Shown here in pieces: positions 15,921 through 59,469 of a stretch of DNA of 64,000 nt. This DNA is from Corynebacterium liangguodongii (GTDB taxonomy: Bacteria > Actinomycetota > Actinomycetes > Mycobacteriales > Mycobacteriaceae), in NCBI RefSeq assembly GCF_003070865.1, contig NZ_CP026948.1, forward strand, positions 1,860,001 to 1,924,000, read 5' to 3'. Numbering within the stretch: the first letter of the stretch is position 1; each line of letters starts with the position of its first letter. A program made the position numbers and the translations under genes. Below the pieces are notes generated by a model. That model was not told where the DNA came from. It made no database searches and saw only the letters and a list, made by a program, of their open reading frames with translations.

Positions 15921-16675
15921 CCCACCGCCTCCAGCGTCTGCTCCGCCGCGCGGACGAGCGCCCCGCCGTAGCCCGGCCCGTGCGTAAACGCGTGCACCGC
16001 CAGCGGGTGGAGCTGGTGGATCGGGATGCGCGCTTGCCAATTTTCCCCCAGCTCCCCATCCTCGAGGTAACCCTCGACGATCGCGTCGAAGTGGGGCGCG
16101 CCAAAAAGCTCAAGCATCGCGATATCGGTCAAGGGGTGCCCGCCGTGGGCGGCCGGGTCGATAAACCGCGGCCCCTCAGGGGAGAACAGCAGGTTACCCG
16201 ACCACAGGTCGCCGTGGATGCGGGCTAGCGGGGCGTCTTCGTCCTCGTCTTCGAGTGCCTTGCACGCCGCGCGGACCGCTTCCCACCCGGCGCGGCTCAA
16301 GTTTCCGGCGTCGCGGGCACGCTCCGCGAAGGGGAGGACGCGCTGGTGTGCGTAGAATTCCGCCCACCGCCTCGTCGGGCGGCACTCCTGCTCAATGCGG
16401 CCGATGAAGTTCGGCCCGTCCCACCCGTCCGGCGGGGCCCCGAACGCCGCGGCGCCGCACGCGTGGATCTTCGCCAGCTCGCGGCCCGCCTGCCGTGCGG
16501 CTTCGTGGGTGGGGCGAGCGTGGCTAACCTTCTCGATGACCAGTGTGTTCGCGGCACGATCGAGGTCCAGCACATCTACGACCGCCGCGCTGCCCTCGCG
16601 CAGCCAGCGCAGGCCCGCGGACTCCGCAGCTGCGGAGGCGGGGGCGCTGCCGTGTTTGAGAAAGACCTCGGACAT
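15917..16675 (-). CDS. fructosamine kinase family protein
   Basis: A 252-residue kinase of the FN3K/ketosamine-3-kinase fold, which phosphorylates sugar adducts on proteins or amino acids so that they fall apart. The catalytic loop [14 protein letters not shown] and the metal-binding [11 protein letters not shown] are both intact, and the APH-like N-lobe begins [21 protein letters not shown]. Substrate cannot be told from the sequence. TAGCAT followed by 7 nt precedes the ATG, again a leaderless-type promoter. Neighbours: nadE (convergent) and ogt (upstream, same strand, 10 nt gap). Confidence 0.88.
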
Positions 16676-24552: not shown

Positions 24553-24671
24553 TGGGTCGGCGGTAACTTACTCTCCCACCCCCTCCCGGGGGCAGTACCA
24601 TCAGCGCGGGCGGGCTTAGCTTCCGGGTTCGGAATGGGTCCGGGCGTTTCCCCGCCGCCATCAACCACCGA
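24553..24671 (-). rRNA. rrf: 5S ribosomal RNA
   Basis: The minus strand shows the conserved 5S core GAAACGCCCGGACCCATTCC and GAACCCGGAAGCTAAGCC and complementary ends (TGTCGGTGG ... CCGCCGACC). Ends are estimated to within a few bases. Confidence 0.95.
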
Positions 24672-24716
24672 CACACTTTGTGGGGTCACAATATGGTGTT
24701 GTTGTGGTGTGTCAGA

Positions 24717-55214: not shown

Positions 55215-58200
55215 GTGTCCCCCACCCGCCGCGCGATCGGCACCGCCGTGTCCATCGCCATCGCCGCAGGCTCCTTGTCCGTAGCCTCCCCAGCCCGCGC
55301 CGCAGTCGATGGCAGCAACGTCGTCATCAACGAGGTCTACGGCGGCGGGGGTAACAGCGGCTCGGTCTACACGTACGACTTCGTCGAGCTCTACAACCCC
55401 ACCGACGCCCCGATCGACGTCACCGGGTGGACGATGGAGCAGCGCTCCAAGGGAGACACGCTGAACAAGGCCGTCACTTTGAGCGGCACGGTACCCGCGA
55501 AGGGCTACTTCCTCATCCAGGGCGACGCCGGCGCCACACCCTCGCAGGACCTGCCGGCCGCAGACCAGGTGAGCCAGTTCGGCTTCGGTGGCTCGGAGGC
55601 CATCGCCGCGCTTCTCGACGCCACAGGCGCCACCGCGGACCTCGTCGGCTGGGGCGCAGCCACGAGATTCGAGGGCACGCCCGCCGCGAAGGTGTCAAAC
55701 TCGACCTCCATCCAGCGCTCATCCGCGGGCGTAGACACCGACAACAACGCCGCCGACTTCTTCCAGGGCGCCCCCACCCCGCAGGCCTCCGGCGGGGCCG
55801 CTCCTGTCGATCCCGTTGATCCTGCTCCCGCGGAGGTCTCCATCGCGGAGATCCAGGGCACGGGTGCTGCCTCCCCGCTGGCGGGGCGCAACGTGGTCAC
55901 CCGCGGGGTCGTGACCGCTTCCTACCCGGAGGGCGGCAAGAAGGGCTTCTACCTCCAGACCGCCGGGACCGGGGCGGCCGCGAAGAACCCGGGCGAGGCC
56001 TCCGACGGCATCTTCGTCTACATGGGCCCGCGCACCGATTACCCCGCGGTCGGCGCATCCGTGCAGGTGGCAGGTACGGTTTCCGAGTTCAAGGAGGTCA
56101 CCCAGCTCACGGCCACGGCGATCACCCCGATCGAGGCTCTCGCCGCGCCGAGCGCGATCGCCATTGAGCACCTGCCCGCGGGCAATGAGGCGCGCGAGCC
56201 CTACGAGGGCATGCTCGTGCGGCCGGGTGGTGCGTACACGGTGACCAACAACTACTCGCTCAACAAGTTCGGCGAGGTCGGCCTCGCCCCCGGTACGTTG
56301 GCGCACCGCAGCCCGACCGACGTTGTTTTGCCTGGCACCGCCGCCAACGATCTGCAGGCCAAGCAAAACGCGGAGATCGTCTACCTTGACGACGGCCGCA
56401 CCGCGAACTACTTCAACACCGACAAGTCCACGCCGCTGCCCTACATCGTCACCTCGGACGGCGGGATCAAGTCCCTGCGCACCGGCGACGGCGTGTCCTT
56501 CCAGACCGACGTGGTTGTCGACTACGCCTTCGACCAGTGGCGCTTCCAGCCGCTCGAGCCCATCACCGGCAAGAACACCGCCGGCGAGCTGCCGATTACC
56601 TGGCAGGACTCCCGCGCGGCGACCCTCGAGGTGCCAGCCTCCGTGCGCGGCGAGTTCTCCATCGCTTCGTTCAACGTGCTCAACTACTTCACCTCGCTCG
56701 GCCAAGACACAGCCGGCTGCGGGGCCTACACCGACATGTACGGCAACCCGGTGGCCACCAACGGCTGCACGGTGCGCGGCGCATACACCCCGGAGGCGCT
56801 CGCCGACCAACAGGCGAAGATCGTCGCAGCGATTAACCGCCTCGACGTCAGCGTGCTGGGCCTGGAGGAGATTGAGAACACCGCAACCGTCACCGGCGAC
56901 GTCGCGCGCCGCGACGAGGCGCTGGGCACGCTTGTCGACGCCTTAAACTCCGCCGGCGGAAACTGGGCCTACGTTGCCTCCCCCACCCAGCTTGGTACCG
57001 ATGAGGACTACATTCGCACCGCCTTCATCTACAACAAGGACGAGGTCGAACCGGTCGGCGAGTCCCGCATCTTCGACGACCCTGCGTTTACCGGCATGGC
57101 CCGTCAGCCCCTCGCCCAAGAGTTCAAGCCTGTGGGCGATGACGGCGCACGCAGCTTCGTCGCCATCGTCAACCACTTCAAGTCCAAGGGCTCGGTGGCC
57201 AACGGCGACGCAGATTCCGGCGACGGGCAGGGCAACAATGCTCAGGTGCGGCTCGCCCAAGCCACCGCGCTCATCGACCACCTGGACAAGCAGGACGACT
57301 GGGCCGACAAACCCGTGTTCATCCTCGGCGACCTGAACTCCTACTCCATGGAAGACGCGGTGCGCCACATCGAGCAGGAAGGCTTCACCAACATCGCCTC
57401 GCGCCGCGACTTCGACGGCGCCTCCTACCAGTTCTCCGCACAGCTCGGCTCCCTCGACCACGTGCTGGCCAACGAAAAGGCCGCTGCGCTCGTGCAAGAC
57501 GCCGCGGTGTGGAACATCAACGCCGACGAGCCGGTCGCCTTCGAGTACTCGCTGCGTAACTACAACGTGCAGGACTTCTACGCAGCCGACCCGTTCCGCT
57601 CCTCCGACCACGACCCGATCAAGGTCGGGTTCAATCTCGCTGAAACGGTAGACCAGCCCACGAAGACGCTGGTCCGCATCGAGCTCGCCGACAACGGAGA
57701 CCTGATCGCGGTATACACCGATGGCACGACGGAGACGCGCGAGGTCGTCGGCAACGTGCTTGGCCAGGATGGCGCTGCTGGTCGTGGCGTCGAGAAGTTC
57801 GAGATCAACGCCTCCGGTGAGCTCGTGGTCACCTACACCGACGGAACCAGCGAGAACCTCGGCAAGGTGACCGGCGATAAGGGCGAGAAGGGTGAGCCGG
57901 GCCAGCCTGGCGCCGACGGCAAAGACGGTGCAGACGGTAAAGACGGCCGTGGCGTCGAGAAGTTCGAGATCAACGCCTCCGGTGAGCTCGTGGTCACCTA
58001 CACCGACGGAACCAGCGAGAACCTCGGCAAGGTGACCGGAGATAAGGGCGAGAAGGGTGAGCCGGGCCAGCCTGGCACCGACGGCAAAGACGGTGCCGAC
58101 GGTAAAGACGGCCGTGGCGTCGAGAAGTTCGAGATCAACGCCTACGGTGAGCTCGTGGTCACCTACACCGATGGAACCAGCGAGAACCTCGGCAAAGTCA

Positions 58201-58439
58201 CCGGAGACAAAGGCGACAAAGGCGAGCCCGGCCAGCCTGGCACCAACGGCAAAGACGGTGCCGACGGTAAAGACGGCCAGAAGCCCGGAGACTCCTCGAC
58301 AGGTAGCTCCAGCGGACTGCTTGGGGGCATTATTGGTGCGCTCGTGGGTGCAACCGGCATCGCTGCCTTGATTGCCGCTGCGGTGAACTTCCTCTACCCG
58401 GGTGGTGTCTCCGCTATCCTCGCCCGTATGGGCTTCTAG
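55215..58439 (+). CDS. ExeM/NucH-type secreted endonuclease with collagen-like tail
   Basis: A 1074-residue exported nuclease. After a signal peptide (residues 1-30, ending PARAA) come a lamin-tail domain (about 35-160, VINEVYGGGGNSGSVYTYDF), an OB-like domain (about 205-340), and an endonuclease/exonuclease/phosphatase domain (about 480-810) with FSIASFNVLNYF, GLEEIEN, NHFKSKGS, LGDLNSYS and SSDHDPIKVGF. From about residue 856 three 55-residue repeats alternate a beta module (VEKFEINASGELVVTYTDG) with collagen-like G-x-y triplets (GDKGEKGEPGQPG, DGKDGADGKDG). A C-terminal hydrophobic helix (GLLGGIIGALVGATG...) is likely to anchor it in the envelope. AAAGGA lies 8 nt before the GTG. It may scavenge DNA phosphate. 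Confidence 0.9.
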   Translation: MSPTRRAIGTAVSIAIAAGSLSVASPARAAVDGSNVVINEVYGGGGNSGSVYTYDFVELYNPTDAPIDVTGWTMEQRSKGDTLNKAVTLSGTVPAKGYFLIQGDAGATPSQDLPAADQVSQFGFGGSEAIAALLDATGATADLVGWGAATRFEGTPAAKVSNSTSIQRSSAGVDTDNNAADFFQGAPTPQASGGAAPVDPVDPAPAEVSIAEIQGTGAASPLAGRNVVTRGVVTASYPEGGKKGFYLQTAGTGAAAKNPGEASDGIFVYMGPRTDYPAVGASVQVAGTVSEFKEVTQLTATAITPIEALAAPSAIAIEHLPAGNEAREPYEGMLVRPGGAYTVTNNYSLNKFGEVGLAPGTLAHRSPTDVVLPGTAANDLQAKQNAEIVYLDDGRTANYFNTDKSTPLPYIVTSDGGIKSLRTGDGVSFQTDVVVDYAFDQWRFQPLEPITGKNTAGELPITWQDSRAATLEVPASVRGEFSIASFNVLNYFTSLGQDTAGCGAYTDMYGNPVATNGCTVRGAYTPEALADQQAKIVAAINRLDVSVLGLEEIENTATVTGDVARRDEALGTLVDALNSAGGNWAYVASPTQLGTDEDYIRTAFIYNKDEVEPVGESRIFDDPAFTGMARQPLAQEFKPVGDDGARSFVAIVNHFKSKGSVANGDADSGDGQGNNAQVRLAQATALIDHLDKQDDWADKPVFILGDLNSYSMEDAVRHIEQEGFTNIASRRDFDGASYQFSAQLGSLDHVLANEKAAALVQDAAVWNINADEPVAFEYSLRNYNVQDFYAADPFRSSDHDPIKVGFNLAETVDQPTKTLVRIELADNGDLIAVYTDGTTETREVVGNVLGQDGAAGRGVEKFEINASGELVVTYTDGTSENLGKVTGDKGEKGEPGQPGADGKDGADGKDGRGVEKFEINASGELVVTYTDGTSENLGKVTGDKGEKGEPGQPGTDGKDGADGKDGRGVEKFEINAYGELVVTYTDGTSENLGKVTGDKGDKGEPGQPGTNGKDGADGKDGQKPGDSSTGSSSGLLGGIIGALVGATGIAALIAAAVNFLYPGGVSAILARMGF
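57780..58274 (+). repeat. three 165-bp coding repeats (collagen-like modules)
   Basis: Units start at 57780, 57945 and 58110, exactly 165 bp (55 codons) apart, within the secreted nuclease gene. The first two are nearly identical; the third has a Ser-to-Tyr change and different synonymous codons in its triplet part, so it is older or has been reshaped. Confidence 0.9.
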
Positions 58440-58440
58440 G

Positions 58441-58772
58441 GCACCAGGGACTCTGCCGCTGCGGAGTCCCACCGAGTTGCACCAGGGACTCTGCCGCTGC
58501 GGAGTCCCACCGAGTTGCACCAGGGACTCTGCCGCTGCGGAGTCCCACCGAGTTGCACCAGGGACTCTGCCGCTGCGGAGTCCCACCGAGTTGCACCAGG
58601 GACTCTGCCGCTGCGGAGTCCCACCGAGTTGCACCAGGGACTCTGCCGCTGCGGAGTCCCACCGAGTTGCACCAGGGACTCTGCCGCTGCGGAGTCCCAC
58701 CGAGTTGCACCAGGGACTCTGCCGCTGCGGAGTCCCACCGAGTTGCACCAGGGACTCTGCCGCTGCGGAGTC
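58441..58772. repeat. nine-copy 38-bp tandem hairpin array
   Basis: Eight full identical units and a ninth of 28 bp start every 38 bp from 58441 to 58745, beginning 2 nt after the nuclease stop codon. Each unit contains GGGACTCTGC-CGCT-GCGGAGTCCC, a 10-bp stem (one G-T wobble) with a 4-nt loop, then ACCGAGTTGCACCA as linker. It ends shortly before the convergent DUF2334 gene. There are no variable spacers, so this is no CRISPR. Confidence 0.93.
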
Positions 58773-58788
58773 AAACTTCTACCAGGAG

Positions 58789-59469
58789 CTATGCCAGGAA
58801 ACTACGGTAATCGGCCGGTTCGGCTCCTTCATCGACCGCCGCTGCTGCGGCATCGATAAAGTCGCGGCGCACCTTCTTTTTCCCAAGCTCACGGCCCGAG
58901 ACCGATAGGCGAATGATGTTTCCCCGCGATGCACCCCGCTCAGCCGCCCGGATGATGTTGCGCCGCCACCAGCGCGCCGCGCCGTAGCCTTCGCCAACGG
59001 AGAGGTTGCGGCACTGGTAGAACATGCCGGTGTCGGTCTGGTGCAGGCCCTTCGTCGACGCCACCAAAAGGAAGCCGAAGTCCGGCAGCACCTTGAGGGT
59101 GCCCTCCGAGAGGTTCCAGCGCGGCGGCGCAAAGATGTTGAAGGTAAAACCCAACGACTCCATCTGGCGGGTCGCCCCGGCCAGGCGCAGGCGTGCCTCG
59201 TGGGCGGCAAGGGTGGCAAACTCCGCACGGCGGCCCTGAGCGGGCTGGTCGAAGCCGTTGAGGATGAGCGCGCGATCAACCTCGCGCTGGGCCTCGAGCC
59301 ACTTTCGGGTCTTCTTGTCCTTCGCCAGGTGCCACTTCTTATCGATGTGCGGGGCCACCAAGAGCGAGACGGGGATCTCGGCGCGGTCGAGCTCGGTGAC
59401 GAGGCGGTCGACGTCGTCAAGCGTGTCGTCGAAAATCGACGACACCGAAACAAGTACGTGGCCGGGCAT
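58789..59469 (-). CDS. DUF2334 domain protein, deacetylase-like
   Basis: A 226-residue protein of the polysaccharide-deacetylase-like DUF2334 family, common in mycolic-acid bacteria. Landmarks are HVLVSVSSIFDDTLDDVDRL, PVSLLVAPHI, NGFDQPAQGRRAEFATL, and FNIFAPPRWNLSEGTLKVLP. The paired Asp/His metal site of true deacetylases is not clearly complete, so activity is uncertain. I chose ATG at 59469 because GATAAT ends 7 nt upstream, implying a leaderless mRNA; the longer frame adds 38 low-complexity residues. Confidence 0.82.
   Translation of the reverse strand: MPGHVLVSVSSIFDDTLDDVDRLVTELDRAEIPVSLLVAPHIDKKWHLAKDKKTRKWLEAQREVDRALILNGFDQPAQGRRAEFATLAAHEARLRLAGATRQMESLGFTFNIFAPPRWNLSEGTLKVLPDFGFLLVASTKGLHQTDTGMFYQCRNLSVGEGYGAARWWRRNIIRAAERGASRGNIIRLSVSGRELGKKKVRRDFIDAAAAAVDEGAEPADYRSFLA

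Follow-up and report, generated by a model that had tools for sequence, protein, structure and literature searches.

The 64,000-nucleotide stretch of Corynebacterium liangguodongii DNA analysed here (the window, in which a position equals the genome position minus 1860000) contains, at 58441-58772, 332 bases made up of nine head-to-tail copies of GCACCAGGGACTCTGCCGCTGCGGAGTCCCACCGAGTT, eight of them full 38-bp units and the last of 28 bp. An earlier note on this DNA had described a nine-copy array of perfect hairpins here, and both exact comparison and TRF confirmed it, with the units 100% identical, spacer included. Each unit carries a palindrome, GGGACTCTGC-CGCT-GCGGAGTCCC, which we refer to as type A and to which no strand is assigned; the first lies at 58447-58470 and recurs every 38 bases up to the ninth at 58751-58774, whose final two bases are AA instead of CC. 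Upstream of the array is a plus-strand gene (55215-58439) for a 1074-aa extracellular endonuclease of the ExeM/NucH family (NF033681, 585 bits; PF00932, PF03372, PF01391), with a lamin-tail domain and collagen-like repeats according to Pfam; a single base separates its stop codon (58437-58439) from the start of the array. Convergent on the array is a minus-strand gene (58789-59469) for a 226-aa DUF2334 protein (PF10096), whose stop codon (58789-58791) follows the end of the array after 16 bases. TRF also detected three 165-bp in-frame repeats on the plus strand within the endonuclease gene and outside the array (57783-58278); they are nearly identical, contain collagen-like stretches, and are missing from the part that was read of the orthologue in another species (G118, locus L014).

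The fold of the plus strand of 58410-58830 is much more stable than the folds of shuffled versions (z -7.6, none of 100 as good). The 10-bp stem of the unit holds one T.G pair, which is U.G in plus-strand RNA and turns into a C.A mismatch on the minus strand, so the strands differ, a correction to the earlier note, in which RNA from either strand would form a string of hairpins. The bases directly after the stem read ACCGAG on the plus strand and TGGTGC on the minus strand, and a terminator scan of the array found none. A coding array was rejected because the long frames that run through it arise simply from a repeat length that is not a multiple of three, and a CRISPR array because the whole 38-bp unit is identical and leaves no unique spacers. 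A search of Rfam over 58300-58900 returned eight matches at E<=1, all below their gathering scores; the rRNA and tRNA matches found with the places of the palindrome in this genome are neighbouring genes and not the palindromes themselves. The 24-base hairpin has no further site at up to three mismatches in the 2,357,924-base genome, its exact 24-mer is absent from the collections of genome contigs and of viral contigs that were searched, and the array is absent from a plasmid collection. A loose form of the core occurs in the window outside the array at 15942, 16623 and 48528, a number close to that expected from background windows.

Distribution and genomic places of the palindromes

The array belongs to a repeat family with a restricted distribution over the 242 Corynebacterium genomes searched. 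Relatives of the DUF2334 protein are found in 172 of these genomes, and for the 30 best of the 172, C. liangguodongii included, we inspected 330 bases downstream of the gene. The extracellular endonuclease gene is directly next to it and convergent in five of the 30, namely C. liangguodongii (G000), G118, C. lipophiloflavum DSM 44291 (G094), C. qintianiae (G140) and G146; with 11 of the 30 tested for the endonuclease, G147, G109 and G017 have it in the same locus with another gene between. The orthologous place is occupied in G118 by 12 tandem copies of a 39-bp unit, CCCCAGGGACTCTGCAGCGGCGGAGTCCCACCGTAAAAA, which is related to the window unit; there C. lipophiloflavum has one terminator-like hairpin (CCCC-stem-GGGGTTTT), C. 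qintianiae has one imperfect hairpin, and G146 has no hairpin within the 330 bases. Among these five genomes only the grouping of G146 with C. lipophiloflavum was resolved. Judged from these sequences, arrays at this place arose or were kept in two lineages (G000 and G118), and the array probably grew from one hairpin lying where the convergent genes meet, since a lone hairpin is still present in two relatives (G094 and G140).

The type A core, ACTCYGC-N4-GCRGAGT, has 62 exact copies at 10 intergenic places in C. liangguodongii, nine of which hold at least two, while a control with the reversed pattern gave none. These places lie at 192 kb (8 copies), 269 kb (16), 299 kb (2), 336 kb (5), 899 kb (5), 1066 kb (1), 1278 kb (5), 1316 kb (6), 1717 kb (5) and 1918 kb (9, the window array). 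The earlier note had proposed searching other Corynebacterium genomes for the unit and had named its absence from all relatives among the outcomes that would speak against it. Such an absence is not what is seen, since the core palindrome occurs in 21 of the 242 genomes, with at most one match to the reversed control in any genome. It is frequent (14 to 62 exact copies) in only five of the 242, with 62 copies in C. liangguodongii, 26 in G146, 18 in C. lipophiloflavum, 16 in G118 and 14 in C. qintianiae; G067 has eight and fifteen further genomes have one each. A sister palindrome, type B (TCCGCAWTGCGGA), is mixed into the type A arrays and reaches further than type A. Exact type B copies in the 10 genomes searched number 41 in G118, 33 in G146, 26 in C. 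qintianiae, 24 in C. lipophiloflavum, 20 in C. liangguodongii, 10 in G147, 8 in G017, 4 in G109, 2 in G067 and 0 in G062, against reversed-pattern matches of one in G146 and none elsewhere.

The loops of two palindromes are alike in 54% of pairs within one place against 18% between places, and none of 1000 shuffles was as high; with the window array removed the figures are 46% and 20%, again with none of 1000 shuffles reaching the observed value. This agreement fits the recent expansion or homogenisation that had been proposed for the window array, which is the only long perfect array among the nine multi-copy places, the one at 299 kb consisting of two copies. A single loop type runs through all 16 exact cores read in G118, array included, and C. 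qintianiae, C. lipophiloflavum and G146 have mixed loop types (9 of 18 cores read in C. lipophiloflavum and 22 of 26 in G146).

Copies of the palindromes have spread across the genomes of the C. lipophiloflavum group: in C. liangguodongii most stand between convergent genes, and three relatives have them downstream of rRNA operons as well. Judged by flanking ORFs, Pfam matches and tRNAs, six of the places in C. liangguodongii, with 49 of the 62 cores, are convergent (transposase/tRNA, proC/HAD, rplL/SDR, rnd/dxs, transposase/pyridoxal-kinase-like and endonuclease/DUF2334), two with 6 cores lie between genes of the same direction (before an MFS gene, and rpsA/coaE) and two with 7 cores are divergent (ROK/HNH and aspS/zinc peptidase). 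Set against assumed shares, six convergent places of 10 are above a quarter (binomial p 0.02) and not clearly above a third (p 0.07). Palindromes start within 0.5 kb behind all four 5S rRNA genes in both C. qintianiae and G146, two of the C. qintianiae operons having only one exact core each together with decayed ones; G118 has type B palindromes behind all four of its 5S genes, at distances of up to 0.4 kb for three of them and 2.4 kb for the fourth, and G067 has one exact core behind the one 5S gene found. Unlike the three relatives with palindromes at all four, C. liangguodongii has none behind its four rRNA operons (window 24555-24672 and loci L124-L126).

The rplL array of C. liangguodongii is missing near the same gene in six of six relatives, which argues that palindrome sites are gained, although on sequence comparison this could instead be a loss in the six. 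The proC/HAD array is likewise missing near the HAD gene in all five readable relatives, the sixth (C. lipophiloflavum) reading N there, and from these two cases together it follows that arrays come and go.

Transposase genes and insertion sequences lie close to several arrays. An IS256/Mutator-type transposase region is present twice, with 98% identity (L081 1002-2461 and L089 1076-2535), next to two of the arrays in C. liangguodongii; the transposase matches of the L081 copy are split over two overlapping frames. IS21-like elements or their ends are found in or at the edge of arrays behind rRNA operons in C. qintianiae and G118 (L031, L033 and L123). The C. liangguodongii genome has no strong IS21 match, its two weak PF01695 matches including a stronger one at 867-1178, which we take to be dnaA; an origin of the palindromes as mobile-element ends was rejected on this ground, and insertion sequences would be at most guests in the arrays. 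Insertion sequences that target REPs have been reported (PMC1525189).

A palindrome at the start of every examined gene of one nuclease subclade

Two palindrome pairs in C. liangguodongii lie directly upstream of HNH/DUF222 genes, and this prompted a search of 14 genomes with the DUF222 profile (PF02720), which gave 41 matches. Among the first fifteen examined, mostly weak-scoring, type A or B was present at the gene start in 14. Nine of the fifteen had been known beforehand to lie near palindromes; of the six that had not (G140b, G140c, G147, G116, G026 and G173), five had type B and G173 had a different pair, TTTCCGC-CGC-GCGGAAA. From the remaining 26 matches 24 loci served as controls; the other two, in G002, came without a locus. 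One of the 24, L159 of G067, proved to be a gene of the same subclade, with the palindrome pair TTCCGC-ACAG-GCGGAA / TTTTCCGC-ACGG-GCGGAAAA, and none of the other 23 DUF222 genes had type A or B within 600 bases upstream. Two more subclade genes (G094b and G146b) were found through type A arrays at the syntenic place. The 18 subclade genes thus comprise nine previously known near palindromes, two found through them and seven taken up without a known palindrome, and all seven of the last group had one.

None of the 18 subclade genes lacks such a palindrome at the start. With the gene start defined as -500 to +150 of the start of the longest frame, the core TCYGC-N3/4-GCRGA was present in 18/18 subclade genes, 0/23 other DUF222 genes and 25/580 random windows (Fisher 5e-12 against the other DUF222 genes and 5e-23 against the background windows), and 15 of the 18 have at least two exact cores there. 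The same core is found within 400 bases downstream in 1/18 subclade genes against 1/23 others, and inside the gene body in 2/18 against 0/23. The two subclade members that lack A or B (G173, locus L178, and G067, locus L159) carry pairs of their own sequence that share the core.

A long, fully supported branch separates the 18 subclade genes from the 23 others in a quick tree (SH-aLRT 100), and in a more careful tree of the subclade alone the five type A genes group together as a single clade with bootstrap 100 and SH-aLRT 99. All five sit between a HAD gene and rplL. Because type A arose once on the tree, the co-divergence of palindrome and nuclease rests on few changes. The HNH motif is kept in all 18 subclade genes; among 33 aligned homologues PF01844 matches 33 and PF02720 22 (E<=0.001), and the DUF222 match of the type A protein of C. 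liangguodongii (23.1 bits) falls just below the Pfam cut-off of 24.4. Homologues of this protein come from Corynebacterium wherever the organism is named, with the exception of one from Ornithinimicrobium (among the best 120 of 138, E 1e-3). The partner profile shows weak HNH similarity to five PDB sequences, which include IscB, a group II intron maturase and McrA; the plasmid search gave one weak partial match to the partner protein, in Rhodococcus, and PADLOC gave weak HNH matches only, for one of two proteins.

On the 2358-kb contig a long distance separates the window array (1918 kb) from the type A nuclease gene of C. liangguodongii (300 kb). The loop of the array, CGCT (the complement of AGCG), is also that of the type A leader of this gene. 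The same loop occurs in 17 of the 62 type A cores of the genome, AGCT being commoner (21), and in G118 the leader too has the one loop type of that genome. Two of the three subclade genes in C. qintianiae (L169 and L170) appear interrupted near the 5' end. One of the eight type A cores of G067 precedes a disrupted HNH reading frame that shares 46% identity with a subclade protein across 65 residues.

Explanations for the arrays

We favour, at about an even chance, the explanation that the window array is a locally amplified cluster of REP-like type A palindromes that belong with an HNH/DUF222 nuclease, whose recognition and cutting spread them. We infer that the nuclease binds, cuts or spreads the palindromes. 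It would recognise the palindrome much as a RAYT is thought to recognise a REP; nicking or cutting at the palindrome, followed by repair, would then lead both to spread and to tandem expansion, with a single hairpin between the convergent genes seeding the array at the window place and any effects on the two neighbouring genes being secondary.

The strongest rival is an operator role, in which the HNH/DUF222 protein or another regulator binds palindromes 5' of its own gene and the dispersed arrays act as additional binding sites or as decoys, taking part in nucleoid function or regulation, with the nuclease uninvolved in their spread. The position at the gene start in all 18 subclade genes, usually with two or more exact cores, is what would be expected of operators, as are the dyad symmetry with a free loop and the many sites that arrays supply; however, operators alone do not explain the 62 dispersed copies, the gain at new sites or the homogenisation within places, and we consider this explanation unlikely. 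Of the functions guessed at in the earlier note, a putative tandem protein-binding site comes nearest, since the same palindrome type precedes a nuclease gene.

We regard it as quite unlikely that the arrays are hairpins derived from terminators at 3' ends, multiplying by replication slippage alone, so that the window array would be a set of U-less (I-shaped) terminators between convergent genes. The predominance of convergent places, the lone terminator-like hairpin that C. lipophiloflavum has at the orthologous site and the palindromes behind rRNA operons in three relatives are all consistent with such an origin. Four or more T in the next six bases follow 41/170 type B stem ends against 1.8% in background, so type B stems, which are richer in following T, may act as terminators. 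The same measure is 0/172 for type A stem ends at 25 loci other than the window array, the six bases scored being partly stem where the stem exceeds the core, and the mean number of T in the next six bases is 0.69 for type A, 1.12 for background and 2.22 for type B (25 loci). Plain intrinsic terminators are thus disfavoured for type A because its stems lack a U-tract, and together with the negative scan of the array this leaves the multi-hairpin terminator proposed earlier unsupported for type A; titles cited in PMC12288462 fall on both sides of the question whether mycobacterial RNA polymerase needs a U-tract. Further against a terminator origin, an ordinary terminator is already visible by eye ahead of the rplL array of C. 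liangguodongii, two places in this genome are divergent, and the nuclease association is left unexplained.

Very unlikely, in our judgement, is a BIME-like role, with the palindromes as candidate DNA sites to which gyrase or a nucleoid protein would be drawn in regions where positive supercoiling builds up, namely downstream of heavily transcribed genes and between convergent ones. In E. coli, gyrase sites are concentrated downstream of rRNA operons and in BIME-2 (PMC6379681), and the palindromes behind four of four rRNA operons in each of C. qintianiae, G146 and G118 (type B in the last), as well as those at the rplL, rpsA and tRNA 3' ends of C. liangguodongii, would agree with such sites. 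The bare rRNA operons of C. liangguodongii itself speak against it, and it too leaves the nuclease association unexplained. An assembly artefact, which the perfect identity of all units might bring to mind, is scarcely credible given the single-contig genome, the orthologous 12-copy array of G118 and the nine further places with diverged copies in C. liangguodongii.

Beyond the preferred explanation for the window array, it is conceivable rather than probable that a class of actinobacterial HNH/DUF222 nucleases constitutes a second, independently evolved system of the REP-RAYT kind, in which each nuclease recognises and cuts its own palindrome and so scatters and tandemly expands it. If true, nuclease activity would yield perfect tandem arrays like that of the window. 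A nuclease clade with a palindrome at every examined gene start, and with few to 62 copies per species, offers a series for the study of recognition, cutting and amplification, and provides test cases for how short palindromes spread in genomes without RAYT transposases; it also hints at what some members of the large and little-characterised DUF222/HNH family may do.

Comparison with known repeat systems

Among the titles and abstract openings listed in a literature search, whose coverage leaves most subscription journals outside, none dealt with these palindromes or with palindromes 5' of HNH/DUF222 genes, and the accessible parts of PMC3116915, PMC3733652, PMC12306157, PMC2267715, PMC6379681, PMC1525189, PMC12288462, PMC3350403, PMC10589994 and PMC9569102 do not describe them. 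The repeat survey in PMC2267715 included C. diphtheriae, and its families may overlap the palindromes reported here.

With the REP13E12 or DUF222-HNH repeated genes of actinobacteria, the partner shares the HNH motif and, in part of the family, the DUF222 match, but the partner genes described here form a clade of their own and the 23 other DUF222 genes examined have no palindrome of this kind at their start. STAR elements of Staphylococcus and other VNTR-like repeats form GC-rich intergenic clusters of variable copy number, and clusters of GC-rich intergenic repeats are also what is found here; we know of no partner nuclease for such repeats. BIMEs are mosaics of REP types, and gyrase or IHF binding counts among their features. 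The enterobacterial BIMEs resemble the arrays here as clustered mosaics of two palindrome types at 3' ends, and behind rRNA operons in three of the relatives, although the sequences are unrelated.

The closest likeness is to REP/REPIN sequences, which are, like the palindromes here, short, extragenic and present in many copies, with clusters, tandem arrays and a bias to 3' ends. REP/REPIN partner genes are flanked by their own palindrome type, with more than one type per genome (PMC3116915 and PMC3733652), and the same arrangement is found here with an HNH/DUF222 gene in the place of the RAYT gene. In the REP-RAYT system, however, the partner is a Y1 transposase and the palindromes carry a GTAG or CGTC tag. 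A search for the RAYT domain (Y1_Tnp, PF01797) was negative in all eight genomes and positive in five of 14 control genomes, including E. coli. Within eight bases of the core, on either side and strand, GTAG was found at 0/62 and CGTC at 9/62 type A cores, the window unit having neither, and at 4/16 and 0/16 type B cores, respectively (16 of the 20 in C. liangguodongii, those in the scanned loci). Because no Y1 transposase was found in the eight genomes and there is no general GTAG or CGTC tag, the palindromes and their nuclease are not a REP-RAYT system, but they are REP- and BIME-like in anatomy and position, and the analogy suggests a partnership of repeat and nuclease that resembles REP-RAYT with a different enzyme.
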